Shown: one piece after another, positions 19,562 to 64,000 of the stretch | Position numbering within the stretch: the stretch's first letter is position 1 | Layout of the letters: each line of letters starts with the position of its first letter | Virus record (IMG/VR): IMGVR_UViG_3300025000_000053 | Span: 62,001 to 126,000 of that record | Reading direction: 5' to 3' (one strand) | DNA: 64,000 bases | DNA from: a virus | The notes under the pieces: generated by a model | What the model was told of the DNA's origin: nothing | What the model saw: only the letters and a program-made list of their open reading frames with translations | Database searches by the model: none | Position numbers and translations under genes: made by a program

Positions 19562-22446
19562 TTATATTTTAATATCAATAACAAATTTTCCTTCATTAAA
19601 TTTCCTTTTTTCAATCTCATCATCTATAAGTTTTTCAAAATCTCTTTTAGTTCCAACAAATACTTTATTTTCTTTATATTCATTAGTAATGTCAATTCTT
19701 CTTTTAATATCTTCAAATTTTTTATTATCAGTTAAGAAGAACTTTCCATTATAAAATTTACCTTCAAGATGTCCAGTATTAATCTTTATATCAAATAGGT
19801 CATTATTAAATTCTATACCTAATCCCATTGATTTTAAAAATACCGATAATATTTCAATATTTCTATTTTTAAAATTTGCTTTATACTTAAAATCTTTTAT
19901 AGGATTTAATCTTGTCATTAAATTTTTACCTAAATCACGTCTACCTATAACTGATGACCTATAGAATAGATGTAGTTGAGCTATTAGTTCAGTTGGAACC
20001 CCTATATTAGTATTAAGATTTTCATCAATACCTATTCTTATAGGAGTTTTAGAATAAAGTTCCTGGTGAGTTTTAGCTTTATTAGATTTTTCAGGTAATC
20101 CTTTTCTTGATAAAGTTCCAGTTGATCTAGCTGAAAAACCTTTCTTAGCTGTTTGCATTAATTTCATTACATACATATCTCCAACTATTAATTTCTTCAT
20201 CATTTTAATCTTTCTACCAAATCTATTTACATAAACATCATATTGTTCAATCCAATCATGTTCTTCATATAATTTAATAAGTTTATCAAATAAGAATTCC
20301 TCTTCCCATAAAGGAGGTATATGAATAAATATACCTTCTTCAACTAAATTATTGAAAAATTCTTCCTTACCAATGATACTCAATTTTCTTAAATATTCTC
20401 TTAACTTTTCTTCCTGGTCTTTATTAAAATAACTTATTATATTAAGAAACAAATCTTCTTTTTCTTTCATATTAGTCAGTGTTTGAATACGGTCCACTGT
20501 TCTATTGCATATAAACGTAATTGATTGTTCAAAAAGCTGGTATGAGTTTACAATTGTTTTAGACCATATCTTCAGTCCTATAAAGAACTGCCTCCCGTTT
20601 CGGGTTTCCCCTACTCTACTCGCTTCTTCAGTTATAGATAAATTATAACTTATGCTTTCGATGGCCGTTGAGCACATTTCAAATATTACTATTTGAAACT
20701 TCGCTGCGGATTACTCAATTTTAAACCTTTTTACCATATCTGAGTAGTTACTTCAGCCCTTATCTATGTCACCATGATAAGTTGGTAGTTTAAAATTATC
20801 GAACTTTCCCGCAATTAGAGAGGTTTTAGATCGCCTAAACCTTACCAGTCCAGCGATTGATTACAGATATTGAATTAAATAGAATATCAACACGCTCTCC
20901 AGTTTCTAAGAATGGCATTTCATTATCAGGTAATATTTTTGATATAACACCTTTATTACCATATCTCGTTAAATTCACATAGATCGTTAATCTATGCAGT
21001 TCTCTTATGAACTTCCCTAAGTTTCCTTAGGATACTAGACTATCTCTTCATCTCTATAAAATAATATAGAGAGTTACCCACTTCGATTTAAGGGGATTTC
21101 ACCCACTCACTTGAGCCCTACTCCTAATGCTTATTTCAAAGCTAAAGGATAGTCGTTGAACTTTATTCCTCATTATAAGGAATCTTAGCTGCGGATTACT
21201 CAATCTTTTTATTATATAATAAAAAGCTCTAAGAGCTTCCCCGACAATTAAAGTAATTTTCTATATATGTTACCATATATAGGGGCTAAGCTACATAACC
21301 CGTTATTTTTTGCCCTACTTCTAAATAAGCATTTTTTTCAACTAAAAATTCTATTACTATATTAGAAAATACCGAGTTATTTTCTTCTCTCCACTTATAC
21401 TTTTCATCTAATATATTCTTAGCTTTTCTCATATAAAAACTAACTTCTCTAGAATATTTAGAACCAGAATCAATTATCTGTTTACATCTTTTAAATATCT
21501 TCTCATAATAAACTAATTGCATTTTATAATATTTCATTATTTGTCTATTAAAATCATTTTCTTCTAATTCATCTAAAGTTTTATTACAATAGATATCTAT
21601 ATCAATAATTTTACCTTTACCCTCAATAAAGAATAATACATCTGAAGTAAAATCAATCTTTCTAAGATTAGATTTCTTTAAATCATATAACAATTGATTG
21701 TTATGAATTCTTCTCTTAGCACAAATTACCTTATCTTTAACATATTCATTTATATCAGGAAAAGTTTTATAATTATTACTATTGCCATAAATATTACAAA
21801 ATATATCATTATCATTTAAAGAAACTTTAACTCTTTCAACTTCTGTTGAAACCATTCTTTTTGATAATGACTCAGAACAAACAATAGCATCTTCAATAGT
21901 ATTATTTTCTAAAAGGTACATAAATTTAACATTAGTACCATAACAATAATTCATATCATCATCATAAGATGTACTCTTATAAAGAACTTCGCCTTTATTT
22001 ATTGAATTACCAACTTCTTTATTATCAATATTATTGGTATTATACTTAAAACCATATCTTTCTGTTAAGTCTTCTACAGATTTCTTTTCTATAATATCAT
22101 ATTTATCATTTTCTTTATCATATACAAATAATAAATAAAATTGTTCTTCATTTTTATCATCTGTAAATTTACTTATTTTATCAATAATAACACAATTATT
22201 TTTAACCTTTTTGAAACCAGTAGAATTCTTACCTACTATATTCTCATAATTAGTAAAAATTCTTGGAAACTCAGGTTCATTTAAAGTAACACATTGTTTC
22301 AAATGAGCAGTAAACATAACATTCCTTGATGAACTAATATATCCTGGATTAGTTAATAACGTCATCCCAAATATATCATCTTTACCTTTAAATTCTTTTT
22401 CTTTCTCTTGTAGTATCTCTTTTAGTGACATTGTGGTTTTATACAA
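19562..22446 (-). CDS. rpoB: RNA polymerase beta subunit, C-terminal half, spliced from three exons
   Basis: Exons are 22446-21298 (383 codons), 20966-20852 (115 nt) and 20550-19562; the sum is 751 codons, so 750 aa. Exon 1 ends VGQKITG and exon 2 begins [13 protein letters not shown]. Together they give the RpoB active-site motif G(R)HGNKG, with Lys388 matching a universally conserved lysine. Exon 2 ends in NR and exon 3 continues [10 protein letters not shown], the NRLNxxQLxEQ motif. The C-terminal region holds FSARSTG-like clamp contacts. It complements the N-half gene at 10729. TTG is the likely start, 8 nt after AAGGAGG. The last residues, KFVIDIKI, are shared with the small protein at 1169. 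Confidence 0.92.
20551..20851 (-). ncRNA. Group I intron, divergent type, in rpoB C-half
   Basis: 301 nt. The P (AATTGCGGGAA), Q (GAGTAATCCGCAGC), R (CTCAACGGCC) and S (AAGATATGGTCT) elements are all present. The P7 helix differs from the other introns by paired changes (GGCCA with TGGTC instead of GACTA with TAGTC), so base pairing is kept. The 5' exon end AATCGCU pairs with a GGCGAU guide over six pairs. The splice interrupts a Leu codon, T then TA. Confidence 0.85.
20967..21297 (-). ncRNA. Group I intron in rpoB C-half, at the GNKG motif
   Basis: 331 nt with standard P, Q, R and S elements. The 5' exon ends ACGGGU, paired by a GCCC guide. Splicing joins VGQKITG to RYGNKGV. Sequence and guide are nearly the same as the intron at 30086, which sits in another gene. 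Confidence 0.9.
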
Positions 22447-22536: not shown

Positions 22537-24491
22537 TTATGCCGCTTCTTTAAATTGTTTATCTTGTGATTTTTCTAATCTATCGCATAATTCAAAAATA
22601 TTTAACAATTGACCATTTTCTTCTGGTTCAACATGTGATAATTGTTTTTCCAATATAGGTAATGATCTATTAAATAATTCATATCTTAATTTTTCATTAG
22701 TAAGAAATTCTTTTCTAAATTTCCTACTATCAAATTTAATATCTTTTACTCCTTCAATATATTTATAAGGATTACGTCCAGCAATTAACTCATTATCTTC
22801 AGCAAATCTTAATTGAGTTAAAATTGGATCAAATCCAGTAGACTGATCATATATAAGATTTACAAATTGACCAGCTTTATTTGTTCTAGATTTTAAAAAT
22901 TCAGCTCTTACACCAAAACCATCAAAACCATGTTCATCTTTTTTAAATTTTTCTGAACCTATAGCTATGAAGTTTATTAATAAATTAGCATAATAAATCG
23001 TATATTCACATTAGTCGTCAGCCAATGCAGTTCTCTTCTCTTATGAACTTCCTTATCTTTCGATAAGATACTAGACTATATCTTCATCCTTAATAAATTA
23101 TTTATTAAGGAGTTACCCATTTCGTAAAGAACTTTTTAAGTTCACCCTACCATTATTGACTTGTAGGTCTACTCCTCAGTCTAAATTAGACTTCATCAGA
23201 TAGTCGTTGAACCTTTCTCATAGTAATAATATGAGACTTGGCTGCGGATTACTCAATCTTTTTATTATATAATAAAAAGCTCTAAGAGCTTCCCCGACAA
23301 TTAAAGTAATACTAACATAATATTACTATTATGCCACCCTAAATTTAGGTGCATTCCCACCCGTAAAGTTCACATAGGTCGTTAGTCTATGCAGTTCTCT
23401 TATGAACTTCCTTATCTTTCAATAAGATACCAGACTATATCATTAACCTAATAATTTCTTATTGGGCTACTTCCTATTTCGATTTAAGGGATTTTCACCC
23501 ACTCACTTGAGCCCTACTCCTAATGATCATTTCAGATCCACTGGGATAGTCGTTGAACTTTATTCTAATAATTTACTAGAATCTTAGCTGCGGATTACTC
23601 AATCCTAAAACCTTGTTATTAATATAATTTAGTAGTTTTAGGCTCTAAGAGCTTCCCCGACAATTAAAGAAGTTTTCAACATACATTTCTGTATGAGGCC
23701 CCACAAATCTCTAGTTTAGGGATACTCTGGTCCATCTTCATATATAATAATTGTGGTTGTGTTTTATGCATCGGATTTATTTCCATCTTTTGATTAATGT
23801 GGTTTATAGCAATAACATTTATATTATATGCTTTTATAATTGGCATTAATCTTTTATAGAATTGAGCTAATGCTTTAGCAACTCTATTGGCATATGTCCC
23901 ACCTTCCATTTCATTAGAAGTATCTTTTGAAGCAACTGTTGGTATTGAATCAATAATCATTACAGTTGGAACAAATGCCTTTATTGGTCTATTAAATTCA
24001 TCAACTAATCCAGTATTATACATATAATCTTTTCTATTAGCTTCTTTTTCTTGAGCTATTTCTACTATACTATTAAAAATATCTTCAATATAATTTTTTT
24101 CTTGCTTTAAAATATATTTATCATCAAGTTCTTGTTGAGTCATAGATGTTACATTTTTTATTCTAGTATATGATAAAACTTGTTCTAAATCAAAATGTTG
24201 AACAAATGCATTGTCACTGAATCGTCTAACAATATTAGCTGCAATCTGAATAGCAAAAGTAGTTTTGGCAGTACCAGACTTACCTATAATTGTCATAAAT
24301 GTGCCACCCACTATACCAATAGATGAATAAGTTGTTATGAGTTCCTCATCCAAATTCCTAACTTCAATCATATATCCATTTCTATAGTCAAATGGTACAA
24401 ATCCTGTTGGATAACAAATAGAAGTTTGTGTTGCATTAAATAATCCTTTTTTATCCTTTTCTCTTAATCTTGAAAGCATTTTATTAGCCAT
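22537..24491 (-). CDS. recA: RecA/UvsX-type recombinase, spliced from three exons including a 15-nt micro-exon
   Basis: Exons are 24491-23718 (258 codons), 23361-23347 (5 codons, GGNAP) and 22998-22537; total 416 aa. Walker A is GKSGTAKTT (residues 70-78) and Walker B is VMIIDS (177-182), followed by IAINHINQK. Exon 1 ends MDQSIP. Joined to GGNAP and then IYYANLL it rebuilds the RecA loop L2 region (compare GGKALKFYA). The C-terminal 100 residues are charged and helical. The protein pairs and exchanges DNA strands in phage recombination. A GGGGG ribosome binding site precedes the ATG. Without splicing the frame stops shortly after each exon. Confidence 0.88.
22999..23346 (-). ncRNA. Group I intron in recA, second intron
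   Basis: 348 nt with P, Q, R and S elements. The upstream exon end GCACCU pairs with a GGGUG guide over five pairs, placing the 5' splice after the GGNAP codons. The 3' site follows the G of ATATACG. The exon then reads IYYANLL in frame. Confidence 0.85.
23347..23361 (-). other. recA: 15-nt micro-exon of recA (GGNAP)
   Basis: Five codons lie between two complete group I introns. They supply the Gly-Gly-Asn-Ala of RecA loop L2. The right end is set by the upstream intron's terminal G, and the left end by guide pairing of the downstream intron and by the RecA motif. Reading on past CCT gives five more codons (KFRVA) and then TAA. Confidence 0.82.
23362..23717 (-). ncRNA. Group I intron in recA, first intron
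   Basis: 356 nt with P, Q, R and S elements. The 5' exon ends AUCCCU, paired with a GGGG guide. The 3' site is after the G of CTTTACG. It joins MDQSIP to GGNAP. Confidence 0.87.
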
Positions 24492-29887: not shown

Positions 29888-30933
29888 TTATTTTAAAGAT
29901 TTTTTAACCAATAAACCTTTTGTAACTAGATCACTAGAAATTCCCATTGATATTAAATGCACATCAATTAAATTTAATGTTACCTTATTTTCAACATTAT
30001 TAGTTAAACTATCTAAAGAAACAAATCCTTTTTGGGCTATAAAGGCATACATTTCATTTTTCATAACCATATCATCTGCTCTAGGCGTAAAAGTTCATAT
30101 TGTTTGTTAAACAATACAGTTCTCTTATGAACTTCCCTAACTTTCATTAGGATACCAGACTATATCATTAACCTAATAATTTCTTATTGGGCTACTTCCT
30201 ATTTCGATTTAAGGGATTTTCACCCACTCACTTGAGCCCTACTCCTGTTGCTTATTTCAAAGCTAAAGGATAGTCGTTGAACCTTTCTCTAATATATTAG
30301 AGACTTAGCTGCGGATCACTCAATCTTTTTATTATATAATAAAAAGCTCTAAGAGCTTCCCCGACAATTAAAGAAGTTTTCTATATATGTTACCACATAT
30401 AGGGGCTAAGCTATGTAACCCATGAGTTCTCGTAATGCATCATTAGCTCCAACAGATAATAAAGAAAAGTTTTCTTGATCTGATTCCCTAGCATTTTTAT
30501 CTTCACCAACAACCTGACCAGTCATTGCAGAACGACTTGAACTCTTTGTTGATAAAGTATTTTTTTTACTTAAGAATTGTTGCATTCTTTTAATATGGAC
30601 ATAACCAACAGGTACTTCATATTTAGTAATAATTGGATTATCAATACTGTTATTGACAAAAGGTACTACAACTCTTTCAAATAAAGGTATATCTAATACT
30701 TTTGCAGCTTTTGTTATATTTTCAATATTTAATTCTCTTTCATAATCAATCATATCTAAAATAAGATATTGCTCAATATCTTTAAAAAATTCTTTAAAAA
30801 ATATATCAAATTGATTATCAGACATTGATTGAAACATGTCTTTATATTTTTTAGTATTCGCATCTGTTGGGTCTAATGCACTAAATGTATCATAAATCAA
30901 TTTTTCCATTTTTTTTCTTTTGTCTTTAGTCAT
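29888..30933 (-). CDS. Second RNA polymerase beta C-terminal subunit, spliced from two exons
   Basis: Exons are 30933-30418 (172 codons) and 30085-29888 (66 codons with stop), giving 237 aa. The VPVGYVHIKRMQQF stretch, SSRSAMTGQVVGEDK and ELMG-PRADD (the last formed by splicing) match the C-terminal module of phage beta subunits. The gene at 19562 already has its own version of this region, so this one probably belongs to a different polymerase. An AACA-N6-TA late-type promoter lies upstream, fitting a virion-packaged RNA polymerase expressed late. The rest of that beta would lie outside the window. Confidence 0.8.
30086..30417 (-). ncRNA. Group I intron in the second beta C-terminal gene
   Basis: 332 nt with P, Q, R and S elements. 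The 5' exon ends ATGGGU, paired by a GCCC guide. Splicing gives ELMG-PRADD. Its first 70 nt are nearly identical to those of the intron at 20967. Confidence 0.9.
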
Positions 30934-37773: not shown

Positions 37774-38175
37774 TTAATTAAAAAAATCTTGAATTAAGTC
37801 CTTTATTTGTTCAATAGAAATATAAATTATTTTCTGTATTGAATCTGTTTCACTGATTTCTTCTTTTTTTAAATCTTTCTCATAATTTATTAAAAATTCG
37901 TCAATCCATTTTAATAATAATTCTGTTGTTATTTGTCCTTTATGTTCAGGTTCTTTTTTACCTGATATATTATTTAAAAATTTTCTCATATTTTCATGAT
38001 ATGAATCAAAAATGAGTTTTTTTTCACGACATTCTCGAAGTATTCTATAATATGAAGCTTTACCAATAATCATAGTTTCACATATAATTATTCTAATATC
38101 ACTAAGTTTTCTATTTTTATTTTTTAAGTTATTATATAAAATAGAAAACTCATTAAGTTTACCTATATCATTCAT
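37774..38175 (-). CDS. Helical protein of unknown function
   Basis: About 133 aa from ATG 38175 (MNDIGK); a GTG five codons upstream is the alternative. It contains RRLKKK-like basic helices and an acidic C-terminus. A late-type promoter lies upstream at 38211. Not recognised. Confidence 0.65.
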   Translation of the reverse strand: MNDIGKLNEFSILYNNLKNKNRKLSDIRIIICETMIIGKASYYRILRECREKKLIFDSYHENMRKFLNNISGKKEPEHKGQITTELLLKWIDEFLINYEKDLKKEEISETDSIQKIIYISIEQIKDLIQDFFN

Positions 38176-38210
38176 ATATGAAATTAACACCTCCTTTATT
38201 TTAAAGTATT

Positions 38211-38222
38211 TATTTAATTGTT
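38211..38222 (-). promoter_or_regulatory. Late-type promoter (AACA-N6-TA)
   Basis: On the minus strand AACAATTAAATA. It is a mirror copy of the promoter at 38294, within a larger inverted repeat. Confidence 0.5.
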
Positions 38223-38293
38223 TAATTGACTGTAATAAATTAATTTATTACTTAAATAAAGTAAATTCTTTTTACTTAAACATTTTTTAAATA

Positions 38294-38305
38294 AACAATT
38301 AAATA
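38294..38305 (+). promoter_or_regulatory. Late-type promoter (AACA-N6-TA)
   Basis: AACAATTAAATA, about 33 nt before the ATG at 38338. Confidence 0.55.
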
Positions 38306-38337
38306 AAAAATACTTATCTAAAAGGAGGAGTTATTAA

Positions 38338-38676
38338 ATGCTAACTAAACCGAAAGTTATATATCGGGGTCAGCCTGGTGCAACAGAAACAAAATTATAT
38401 ACTGTTCCGGAAGGAAAAAATCTAGTAAAAATTACAGAAATCATTATTAGTAATACAACAGCAGTAGCCGCAACAATAAGTTTATCTGTTGTTCCTCTTG
38501 GTGGTACCGCCGGAGTTACTAACAGAATTAAGGTTGCTGAAGAAATAGCAGCTAATAAGTCTGAAGTTGTTGAAGTTGAAATTCCGATGCAAGTTGGAGA
38601 TTTTATAAGTGCATTGCAAGGTACTGCCGGTTCATTAACTTTAACTATTTCAGGTGAAGAAATTATGGCTTATTAA
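38338..38676 (+). CDS. Putative virion protein, paralogue of 39136
   Basis: 112 aa with AAAGGAGG before the ATG. Ala/Thr/Val-rich strands typical of a beta-sandwich virion protein. Shares YRGxxGxxExxxYTVP, an AATISLSVVP block and MQVGDFISALQGT with the gene at 39136. It may be a head- or tail-surface protein. Inferred from composition, pairing and promoter type. Confidence 0.75.
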   Translation: MLTKPKVIYRGQPGATETKLYTVPEGKNLVKITEIIISNTTAVAATISLSVVPLGGTAGVTNRIKVAEEIAANKSEVVEVEIPMQVGDFISALQGTAGSLTLTISGEEIMAY

Positions 38677-57949: not shown

Positions 57950-58222
57950 ATGGCTTTACAAATGACTGTTGAAACAAAGTCAGGTGTTTTAATAGATAAT
58001 TGTTATATCAGAATAGATGAAATTGGAGGAACTAAGGAACAATTAAATATACGTGTAAGACTTTATATTTCTAAAGAAAAAAGAGAAAATGGAGTTAATG
58101 CTTTAGAAGAAAATATTTTTTCTTTTACTCCATCTATAGAAATTAGTGCTCTTAATTTTATTATGCAAGGATATTTATATTTAAAATCATTACCTGAATT
58201 TATAAATGCTATAGATAATTAA
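57950..58222 (+). CDS. Small tail-spike-associated protein, paralogue of 60293
   Basis: 90 aa from ATG 57950 (MALQMTVE) after AAAGGAG. Strand-rich, with NCYIRIDEIGG and GYLYLKSLPEF; the latter block recurs in 60293 as GYEYLKTLPEF. Each follows a spike gene, so it may be a chaperone or a tail partner. Confidence 0.75.
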   Translation: MALQMTVETKSGVLIDNCYIRIDEIGGTKEQLNIRVRLYISKEKRENGVNALEENIFSFTPSIEISALNFIMQGYLYLKSLPEFINAIDN

Positions 58223-58235
58223 GTTAATAAACAAT

Positions 58236-58269
58236 AACAAAATACTGATATAGTAATCAGTATTTTGTT
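58236..58269 (+). terminator. Hairpin terminator
   Basis: A perfect 14-bp stem (AACAAAATACTGAT) after the first spike cassette. Confidence 0.85.
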
Positions 58270-58316
58270 AAATATTTTTTATTATAAGTATAAATAACAG
58301 ATTTTATAAAAAATAA

Positions 58317-58328
58317 AACAAATATATA
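58317..58328 (+). promoter_or_regulatory. Late-type promoter (AACA-N6-TA)
   Basis: AACAAATATATA, about 65 nt before the second spike gene. Second candidate at 58350 (AACAAGTTGATT). Confidence 0.45.
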
Positions 58329-58393
58329 AAAAATATCAATAAATAATAAAACAAGTTGATTTTTAATATATTAAAGGAGGGATTTGTTATTTT

Positions 58394-60271
58394 ATGCCTA
58401 ATTTAATTAAGCAACGAAGAGATACTACAGCTAATTGGGTATTAGTCAATCCTATATTGGCTGAAGGTGAAATAGGGATTGAATTTCGTACTAATGGAAG
58501 TATAGGTATTAAAACAGGTAATGGTGTAGATACATGGAATGATTTACCTTATTTAAGTGGAGAGGGTATAACAGTAGAAACACAGGAAGTTATTGATGTA
58601 ATAAATGAAGATATTGGACAACGAAGTATAAATATTAAGATGCTTGGTGCTATAGGAGATGGTTTGTCTCATCCTTTATCTGAAAAATTTAATTCTTTAG
58701 CTGAAGCTCAAGTTGTATACCCCCAGGCGATAAACATTACAGATGAAATAGACGGATTGACTATATTAAAAGCTTTAAATGAATATGATGAAAGTTTTTG
58801 TCCTAAAGGTGAATATCTTACATCTAATTCTATAGTCATACCCGAAGGTAAACGATTAAAATTATCAAAGAAAGCAATAATTAAACCGGTCAGTGATATT
58901 AATGTTGTTGAATTAGGAAAGAGTTCAAATATTGAGGGTGGTGTTATATTATGCTCTCTCAGTAATTTTACAAAAGCCTTAATATTTGTTAATGGTGTGA
59001 ATAGAATTGGAAGTTTATCTGATGTAACTTTTGCAAAGGATTTAACATTAAAGGGTAATGTTGATATAACCAGTATGAATAATAAAGGAATTCATCTTTA
59101 TGCAGATGGAGATAATCATAGTTTAGCTTGGTTAAAATTTGATAATATAAATATTATTCAAATGGGAGAAGCTGTAACTCTCGAAACAATAACTCCCCCT
59201 AGCGGTATGTGTTGGATTAATAGTAATATTTTTAGTAAAATAGGAATATCTTTTTGTCGTCAAGGTATATCTATTAAATCTGGTGTTGTATCTGCTGCTA
59301 TATCTGGAAATATATTTGATTTTATATTTCAAACATCGTCATTTAGTGAACGTGCTCTAATTTGTAATGGTGCTTTTAATTTATTTACATCAACTATATG
59401 GGATTGGAACACTGCCTCATCATTAATAGCAATTGAAATGGAAAGTTCAGCCACACAAAATAAAAACGAAACCACTATTTTAAGAGATCAATATTTAGAT
59501 AATGGTATTGATAATGTTTTTTTTAGTAGGAGATTTGTATATACTGGTACAATAAATATTTATGTTGATCCTGTAAATGGAAATGATGTTAATTCAGGTT
59601 CACTAACCCAACCATTAAAAACAATTGGTAATGCTATATCTAAAATTCCAAAAGAATTCCACAATTCAATTCAAATTAATTTACAGGCCGGTGATTATAC
59701 TGTTTTAGAGGGAACACAATTGACAATTCAAGATTTATATGGATTTGGTAGTTTATTAATTAAAGGTGTTACCTCAGATAAATCATTATATAAAATTCCA
59801 GCTATTAAACTTCAGAGAATATATTTAGGTGTTCTTATTCAATATTTAAATGTTGATGGAAAGGGAACTAACAATGGAATTGATGTTAGGATGAGTCCGA
59901 ATATAGAGATAAATAATTGCACTATATCTAATTGCATTGATGCTGTTTATAGTTATAAAGCAAATTTAGAATTAACTAGTTGTGATGGTGTAAATAATAG
60001 TGTAGCGTATCATGCATATCATGGTAAAATAGGATTAGCTACTTCAACAATAAGTGCAATAACTAAATATTCTTCAACAGCAGGAGGTATTATAATTGAT
60101 GAAAAAATATCTCCTATGGTTAAAATGAGTTCATCACCAGCGAGTGGTACATGGGGATTAGGAGATGTTGTTGAAAATTCTAACCCAATAGCAGGTGGTT
60201 ATAAATGTTGGATATGTATAACTGCTGGGACTCCAGGAGTGTGGAAAGGTTCTGGATTAATTGAGGTATAA
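58394..60271 (+). CDS. Tail spike, second copy, different beta-helix
   Basis: 625 aa. The first 60 residues match the spike at 56041, and 59 bases coding for residues 40-59 are identical. The body is different: after a helical link, a signature IYVDPVNGNDVNSGS typical of right-handed beta-helices begins the second half, and repeats follow. The end is W-rich (GVWKGSGLIEV). It likely recognises a different host glycan. AAAGGAGGG precedes the ATG. Confidence 0.85.
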   Translation: MPNLIKQRRDTTANWVLVNPILAEGEIGIEFRTNGSIGIKTGNGVDTWNDLPYLSGEGITVETQEVIDVINEDIGQRSINIKMLGAIGDGLSHPLSEKFNSLAEAQVVYPQAINITDEIDGLTILKALNEYDESFCPKGEYLTSNSIVIPEGKRLKLSKKAIIKPVSDINVVELGKSSNIEGGVILCSLSNFTKALIFVNGVNRIGSLSDVTFAKDLTLKGNVDITSMNNKGIHLYADGDNHSLAWLKFDNINIIQMGEAVTLETITPPSGMCWINSNIFSKIGISFCRQGISIKSGVVSAAISGNIFDFIFQTSSFSERALICNGAFNLFTSTIWDWNTASSLIAIEMESSATQNKNETTILRDQYLDNGIDNVFFSRRFVYTGTINIYVDPVNGNDVNSGSLTQPLKTIGNAISKIPKEFHNSIQINLQAGDYTVLEGTQLTIQDLYGFGSLLIKGVTSDKSLYKIPAIKLQRIYLGVLIQYLNVDGKGTNNGIDVRMSPNIEINNCTISNCIDAVYSYKANLELTSCDGVNNSVAYHAYHGKIGLATSTISAITKYSSTAGGIIIDEKISPMVKMSSSPASGTWGLGDVVENSNPIAGGYKCWICITAGTPGVWKGSGLIEV

Positions 60272-61788: not shown

Positions 61789-64000
61789 ATGATTGATCCA
61801 TTACAACTAATTTATAATAAAAATACTGTAAACTTAGAATCCATTGAAAAAACTTTAGTTGAAATAAAACAAAATTCTTTTAATCATTTATATAAAATAC
61901 AATTAGATTCAACTGGTTATAAAAGATTTGATTTAAAAATGAGTGATTTAAAGTTAATGAATACTATTGATAAAACAATCACTTATTATCCTAGAAAATA
62001 TATTGGTTTTATTAAAGAAGATTTTATAGATGAAAGATATAGATTATTGTATAAGAGGTCTGAATTTTTTAATAAAGAATTATCTCTTTTTGATATAGCA
62101 AATAATTCAAAAATTTTTATGAAAACCTTTATGGTGTTTATTAATGGTAAATTTTTTGATAATACTAAATTATTATGTAAGGGTGATACAACATATATTA
62201 TTTTTGATATAGCTGAGATAAATAACACTAATGGTATTCCTTATGAATATTTTGAAGAATTATTAACTATGGATGCCGATATTAGTATTATTATTATACC
62301 AAACTGTGAATATGGTATATATAATACCAATATCAATGTATTACGAGCTAATTCAAATGAATTGGCTTTAAGTAGATTTAATTTAGTTAATAGTTTAGAT
62401 ACTGAAAGTCAATATATTACTTTTGTTAATAATAATTCTTTCTTATTTTCCTCTGTTATAACGGATAGTGAAAATTCAGAAAGTCTTTTAAGATTTTATG
62501 ATAATACTTTTAGTAATTTTGATAGTGTATTAATTCATATTAATATATTTGGTTTTAGACATTTATTAGACCAAATTGATTTAATCGGAACTGATAAATA
62601 CTTCCAAATACCAATTCAAAATATGCCAATACCAATAGAAAACATAATGATTTTTAGAAATATTGATGGTAAAAAGTATTTTGCACATGATATCCAGTTA
62701 AAGTTGTATTATCCTAATATTTATGAAGTTCTTAATAATTATAATGATAATGATTTAACATTATATGTATTTTATTCAAATAATACATTTACTTCTGAAA
62801 AATATAAAAATGAATTAGAATTATATCATCAGTTGACAGATAATGTTTTAAATAAATATAAAGATAATTCTATTTCAGATATTATTAAAAACTTTCAACC
62901 TGATACTCTTGTATATGATTTAAATGATTTTAAAGAATTATCTTCAACACCAACAGAATATAAAATGAACACTTTAGATGAATGGGTTAAACAAAATGCT
63001 AATTTATTACAAAGTTATTTAAATAACCAAGCTAAAAAATCTGATGGCTATTATTTAGATATATCAAAAATTGATTTATCTACTAGATATAGGGAGAATA
63101 ATTATACTGAGATTATTGATGATAATTTAAGAGAGGTTTTTAATGAGCCACGTTATGTATTTATTTTTAGAAATGAATTTAATTCTGAATCTCTTAATTT
63201 AAGATTTTTTATTGATGGTATATTATATATACCCGATAAAGTTTATAAAACCGATAAATATGAATTTTTTTATATTCCTATAACTCTAATTAATGCAAAT
63301 TCTATAGTAGAAATAGAAAAAGTAAATAAAATATTTTTTAATCAAGTAATTAATATAAGTTCAATTGATGATTACATTGAATTAAATTTTCCAATAGAAA
63401 TTTCAGCCAATGATGTTTTTATTATTGATAATAATACTAATGTTTATATAGATAGAGATAAATTTTCTTTATACATCAAAGATGATGAAAATAATTATAA
63501 TGAAATAGTAAATAAATCATTTATTTCGTCAGCTGTATTTTATGTTAAACTAAAAGATGAGAACTTATTATTACAAAATTTATCATTAAATGTTATAAAA
63601 AATAGTTTAATTTATACTTGGTCTATTTTAACAGAAGAAGATAAAACTAGTTCATACACTATAAATAATAGTTTAATAAATGATAGAAGACAATTTAGAA
63701 TATTTAAAAATGAGGTATATATATTACCTAATTATAGCTATAATATAACCTTTGTTGATATTAATACTGTGATAGTTGATATTATCATGATAAAAAATAT
63801 AGGTGATGTTTTTACAATAGAAATTTCTCCAGATAAATTTAAAATGGTTTATGAACAAGATGAAATTGAAAGTAGTGGATTGGTTGATTTAACTGGGTTG
63901 ATATATAAACCTTTAGATTTAAATTGGTATGATATTTTTTTAAATGGTATTAAATTAAATAAAAATAATATAGAAATTTTATCACCAACTAAAATGATTA
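61789..64000 (+). CDS. Large putative virion protein, open at the right edge
   Basis: Open frame of 737 codons with no stop to the end of the window. The ATG at 61789 follows AAAAGGGAGTG by about 10 nt. Rich in Asn, Ile, Phe and Tyr, with repeated strand-helix patterns and no membrane segment. Sits after the endolysin in the virion-type block, so probably a tail or baseplate component. No family recognised. Confidence 0.7.
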   Translation, partial: MIDPLQLIYNKNTVNLESIEKTLVEIKQNSFNHLYKIQLDSTGYKRFDLKMSDLKLMNTIDKTITYYPRKYIGFIKEDFIDERYRLLYKRSEFFNKELSLFDIANNSKIFMKTFMVFINGKFFDNTKLLCKGDTTYIIFDIAEINNTNGIPYEYFEELLTMDADISIIIIPNCEYGIYNTNINVLRANSNELALSRFNLVNSLDTESQYITFVNNNSFLFSSVITDSENSESLLRFYDNTFSNFDSVLIHINIFGFRHLLDQIDLIGTDKYFQIPIQNMPIPIENIMIFRNIDGKKYFAHDIQLKLYYPNIYEVLNNYNDNDLTLYVFYSNNTFTSEKYKNELELYHQLTDNVLNKYKDNSISDIIKNFQPDTLVYDLNDFKELSSTPTEYKMNTLDEWVKQNANLLQSYLNNQAKKSDGYYLDISKIDLSTRYRENNYTEIIDDNLREVFNEPRYVFIFRNEFNSESLNLRFFIDGILYIPDKVYKTDKYEFFYIPITLINANSIVEIEKVNKIFFNQVINISSIDDYIELNFPIEISANDVFIIDNNTNVYIDRDKFSLYIKDDENNYNEIVNKSFISSAVFYVKLKDENLLLQNLSLNVIKNSLIYTWSILTEEDKTSSYTINNSLINDRRQFRIFKNEVYILPNYSYNITFVDINTVIVDIIMIKNIGDVFTIEISPDKFKMVYEQDEIESSGLVDLTGLIYKPLDLNWYDIFLNGIKLNKNNIEILSPTKMI

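Follow-up and report, generated by a model that had tools for sequence, protein, structure and literature searches.

How can a recombinase gene yield an intact protein when two complete introns leave five codons between them? The locus that raises this question lies in a 64-kb window, the whole stretch of DNA analysed here (positions 62001–126000 of a 249,853-bp virus record, G000), and the kin of this virus are the jumbo phages AR9/PBS1 and MarsHill. Two complete group I introns interrupt a recA/uvsX-like gene at 24491–22537 on the minus strand. An initial annotation had placed a 15-nt exon encoding GGNAP between them, and this layout was recovered by a splice solver, by homologs and by an identical exon in a diverged relative (G005). 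The features, all on the minus strand, are as follows.

23718–24491 (-): exon 1, recA/uvsX-like, 774 nt, 258 codons, C-terminal QSIP (splice solver, relatives)
23718–23721 (-): 5′ exon strand of intron 1 P1, CCCU (ACCU in G005)
23362–23717 (-): group I intron 1, 356 nt, terminal G at 23362 (RF00028, solver, family alignment)
23699–23702 (-): guide (IGS) of intron 1, GGGG (GGGU in G005)
23347–23361 (-): micro-exon 2, 15 nt, GGTGGGAATGCACCT, GGNAP (same letters in G005 and G009)
23347–23351 (-): 5′ exon strand of intron 2 P1, within the micro-exon, CACCU
22999–23346 (-): group I intron 2, 348 nt, terminal G at 22999 (RF00028, solver, family alignment)
23335–23339 (-): guide (IGS) of intron 2, GGGUG
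22537–22998 (-): exon 3, 462 nt, IYYANLL to the stop
Predicted recA junctions with the micro-exon included, coding RNA of 1251 nt: AGTATCCCT/GGTGGGAATGCACCT/ATTTATTATGC
Predicted recA junction with the micro-exon skipped, coding RNA of 1236 nt: AGTATCCCT/ATTTATTATGC

Two group I introns and their predicted splice sites

Both introns match the full length of RF00028 (model positions 1–253) above its gathering score of 50, with 68.3 bits for intron 1 (E 3.4e-15, 23410–23727) and 67.9 bits for intron 2 (E 4.3e-15, 23051–23357). The covariance model places a catalytic core, P3–P8, in each, and the list of open reading frames holds none of 60 aa or more inside either intron. Both 5′ splice sites follow a U paired with G in P1, and the guide pairing described earlier holds at both, with four pairs for intron 1 (CCCU/GGGG) and five for intron 2 (CACCU/GGGUG), the latter formed with exon letters inside the 15 nt.

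Splice sites were chosen by a solver that admits a 5′ site if its P1 has four or more pairs, the last of them U.G or C.A, that requires a G at the intron end, and that ranks solutions by scoring the joined peptide against the protein of an intronless relative (G002). The splicing of the initial annotation came out on top of 8,466 combinations in the window, with a score of 169 (runner-up 153), and the same splicing ranked first among 17,856 combinations when G005 was solved separately. Since about 5% of positions in the G000 genome allow a P1 that ends in U.G, has four pairs or more and closes a loop no longer than 22 nt, P1 alone is weak evidence; the weight for the predicted recA sites rests on frame, intron ends and homologs. 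The 3′ ends of both introns (TGTGAAN..ACG) match those of other introns in the same family, and in an alignment of 17 family introns from three phages most carry the tail TGTGAA...ACG, with both-side changes in 37 of the 57 consensus pairs. Judged by eye, P10 of intron 1 with the micro-exon seems a weak pairing. Taken alone, the micro-exon can fold a GGUG/CACC hairpin (-5.6 kcal/mol), which competes with P1 of intron 2. Some other G000 introns, for example at 82541–82882 and 228152–228443, were left by the solver without a splice solution.

The joined gene predicts a complete recombinase

All three exon frames agree, as had been claimed, and joining 774, 15 and 462 nt gives a stop-free protein of 416 aa. 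Without splicing, the exon 1 frame enters intron 1 and ends at 23676; retention of intron 1 places a stop after residue 271, and retention of intron 2 places one after residue 268. In a family profile search the joined protein matches phrog_97, a UvsX-like family (E 1.1e-35), and it scores 20.7 bits against Pfam RecA, under the cutoff of 27. Joining also restores the RecA L2-loop motif, the GGNA of the spliced protein aligning with GGNA in Escherichia coli RecA. The closest named relatives of the protein belong to AR9, PBS1, BpSp and the MarsHill group of jumbo phages, at 33–36% identity and with the gene unbroken in all.

The micro-exon is conserved in relatives

Alignment with intronless relatives, which the initial annotation had proposed as a check, finds the GGNAP codons present and contiguous in four of them (L030, L031, L033 and L037), the closest reading SIP-GGNAP-IYYA. 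Variants at this position are GGFAP in L035 and L036 and CGHAA in L032. Of the outcomes that the initial annotation had named as refuting, the one open to a check on sequence, an intact intronless RecA without these codons in a close relative, did not occur. Both recA introns and the identical 15-nt exon occur in G005, and the identical micro-exon recurs in G009, a near-identical partial copy. The recA exons of G005 and G000 are 91% identical, and the codon changes between them, 80 silent against 19 replacement, indicate that the spliced recA protein is under selection. Orthologous introns are 84.5% (intron 1) and 85.7% (intron 2) identical, against 68% between introns 1 and 2, so the pair has been retained through divergence; at 68% the two introns are related members of one family rather than a recent duplication. 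P1 of intron 1 has also undergone a compensatory change: exon 1 ends in ATC CCT in the window and in ATA CCT in G005, and the guide follows suit, with GGGG in the window and GGGU in G005, giving CCCU/GGGG and ACCU/GGGU, respectively.

No recA with just one of the two introns was found among the viral contigs, and no recA relative was found in the genome contigs. In the recA of another phage (L129 3282–4530), one intron lies upstream of site 1 by a few bases and contains an ORF that looks HNH-like by eye; no 3′ end for this intron was found that has a terminal G and is in frame without extra residues.

Proposed origin and splicing of the interrupted gene

We consider it highly probable (roughly 0.9) that two separate, ORF-less introns of one family sit 15 nt apart in the GGNA codons of the L2 loop and that each guides its own splicing. 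Each would use its own guide to find the 5′ splice site, on CCCU or CACCU, and end at its terminal G, and ordinary two-step splicing of each would give exon 1-GGNAP-exon 3 and the full-length 416-aa recombinase. The micro-exon would then be what was left between two introns that had inserted independently in the same conserved stretch, and not a designed element. We infer that recA RNA splices, that this splicing would be autocatalytic and that the two insertions would have occurred by homing at different times. Stepwise insertion is suggested by analogy with an RNA polymerase (RNAP) beta locus described below; recA itself is seen with none or both of the introns.

Judged from their pairing, the two introns most likely splice by themselves and independently. 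The suggestion in the initial annotation that their order of splicing may matter found no support: P1 of intron 2 would take just the last five exon nt, with exon 1 uninvolved, and intron 1 would still have 10 nt available at its 3′ end, so that neither order should be required. An obligatory order was rejected on the same ground, P1 of intron 2 lying wholly in the micro-exon and needing nothing from exon 1. Also rejected was a single composite intron with no exon; such a unit keeps the frame but would discard GGNAP, and each intron is complete at its ends.

A more real consequence of this layout than a required order is possible exon skipping. Carried further, the two introns might act as one large unit, spliced mostly from 5′ site 1 to 3′ site 2; the RecA made mainly, or under regulation, would then be without GGNAP. 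There are precedents: skipping accompanies short exons in Twort orf142 and Coxiella 23S rRNA, as related in PMC10136302, and the phage SIOphi skips an exon (PMC11878797). Loss of the recA micro-exon would moreover stay in frame. It would, however, remove GGNA from an L2 motif in which GGNAP is kept by most relatives, and it would require the intron 2 guide to use 5′ site 1, with which that guide makes three pairs in the window against five with its own site. In G005 that guide can make five pairs with the intron 1 site, and guide pairing thus predicts that skipping, which is possible, would be weak in the window and stronger in G005. Similar exons of 7 and 20 nt, described below, would shift the frame if skipped, and there is therefore no sign that alternative splicing is the reason why exons of this kind are retained. 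As the main or regulated outcome, skipping is improbable. Still less probable is a layout due to chance or artefact, in which the gene is broken and at least one of the introns is inactive or wrongly assembled. The records are metagenomic and splicing is predicted from sequence, but the same arrangement occurs in three records, including one with 9% divergence; silent changes outnumber replacements 80:19 and the intron cores are complete. Independent splicing of two introns remains our preferred reading.

Further predicted micro-exons in the phage and its relatives

The recA exon has counterparts. In the RNAP-beta gene of G000 (reference G002_92232), a 20-nt exon, GATAGCATAAGAACAGCGAT, lies between two introns (L025 17373–18136, equal to G000 177373–178136). 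Another contig, L174, 89.5% identical there, has intron 1 and an uninterrupted second site (GCGAT/GAGTGT), a natural intron-2-free allele; in G008 the second site alone holds an intron, and G002, G004 and G007 have none. The occurrence of neither, either one or both introns at this gene shows that the two arrived separately.

Three shorter or equally short exons are predicted in G003, with one record behind each. The DnaB-like helicase gene has a 7-nt exon, GGGAAGT (L087 18067–18656, equal to G003 38067–38656), the solver's best of 13,020 solutions, with junctions GCCT/GGGAAGT/ACTTG and a join, SA-WEV-LENSDW, that matches SAWEVVENSDW. The RNAP beta′ gene has a 9-nt exon, TTCGACGGC (FDG), within the catalytic motif NADFDGD (L088 18100–19413, equal to G003 58100–59413). 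This is the best stop-free solution, with junctions GCGGAT/TTCGACGGC/GATATATTG, and its second 5′ splice site would have a C.A pair instead of U.G. An ORF in the first intron at this locus is GIY-YIG-like by eye. Another RNAP subunit gene has a predicted 15-nt exon, ATACGAATTGGAGAT.

Introns are dense in these genomes. Default cmscan filters missed introns seen by the genome profile search, and vice versa, so all counts are lower bounds: at least 13 RF00028 matches above the cutoff in G000, at least 22 of any score in 100 kb of G003 and at least 23 in 152 kb of G012, many of those in G003 (L086–L090) and G012 (L175–L180) in tandem. Within the window, an RNAP subunit gene at 19562–22446 has two more group I introns in 20541–21307, of which one was resolved (20967–21297), and a group I intron at 30086–30417 (78.2 bits), missed by cmscan, lies in a gene that resembles the one for the viral RNAP beta subunit of Machias. 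Intron ORFs are usually sense. Two homologous ORFs of 114 and 118 aa (L174 3487–3831 and L007 2673–3029; 47% identical) each lie within a group I intron and run antisense to the interrupted gene, and neither has a family match in Pfam or PHROG.

From these predictions it is likely that repeated insertion into conserved motifs in an intron-dense clade of jumbo phages has produced many micro-exons of 7–20 nt (7 in DnaB-like helicase, 9 in RNAP beta′, 15 in recA and an RNAP subunit, 20 in RNAP beta), all accurately spliced. If so, no shorter exon between self-splicing introns would be known from a virus or a bacterium.

Comparison with known systems

Short exons between group I introns are already known; recA appears to add to that kind, and the predicted exons of 7–20 nt are the shortest phage cases found. 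The initial annotation had called so small an exon very rare. A limited search of the open literature found no phage or bacterial exon below 23 nt between group I introns. Set beside the relatives, the recA exon is not unusually small: exons of 7, 9, 15 and 20 nt are predicted in this phage and its relatives, and exons of 1 nt are published for mitochondria (PMC5436844). The recA case extends to viruses something known mainly from mitochondria. Together these loci make up a naturally occurring series of tandem ribozymes whose exons range from 7 to 51 nt, and close relatives carry alleles with one intron or none. In this series one can ask how ribozymes that share few exon nucleotides avoid skipping, and at what exon length guide pairing gives out. 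Gene-calling programs will split phage genes of this type; here they would report RecA as a truncated protein of 271 aa.

AR9, BpSp, Machias and MarsHill belong to the same wider phage group and are intron-rich (18 RF00028 matches in AR9 and 12 in BpSp), with genes annotated as joins of 3–6 pieces each; unlike in G000, their recA is unbroken. The shortest exon that alignment suggests in those jumbo phages, approximate in length, is one of about 39 nt in BpSp RNAP-beta. A link of AR9/PBS1-like phages to nucleus-forming phages is speculation, no paper in the literature searched connecting AR9/PBS1 with chimallin.

In placozoan mitochondrial cox1, a one-base exon between two group IB introns is supported by RNA (PMC5436844), and single-nucleotide exons are reported from fungal mitochondria (PMC12308204). 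The likeness is a micro-exon made by a second group I intron inserted beside a first; those cases are mitochondrial and 1 nt long, whereas ours are in phage DNA and seen in sequence. Coxiella burnetii 23S rRNA is a bacterial case in which a short exon separates tandem group I introns (cited in PMC10136302), and differs in being rRNA with introns of two different subgroups and a longer exon (34 nt). In phage phiNIT1, cDNA sequencing revealed a small exon of unstated length flanked by two introns in the gene for the large subunit of ribonucleotide reductase (PMC11878797); like G000 recA this is a small exon between phage introns, in another gene and another phage group. Twort orf142, by the account of Landthaler and Shub (1999) in PMC10136302, likewise is a phage gene with a very short exon, of 23 nt and subject to skipping, between two similar group I introns (2 and 3). 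Orf142 is a tail gene; the exon described here is in recA/uvsX, is 15 nt long (7–20 nt across the set) and is flanked in the window by introns whose guides are distinct.
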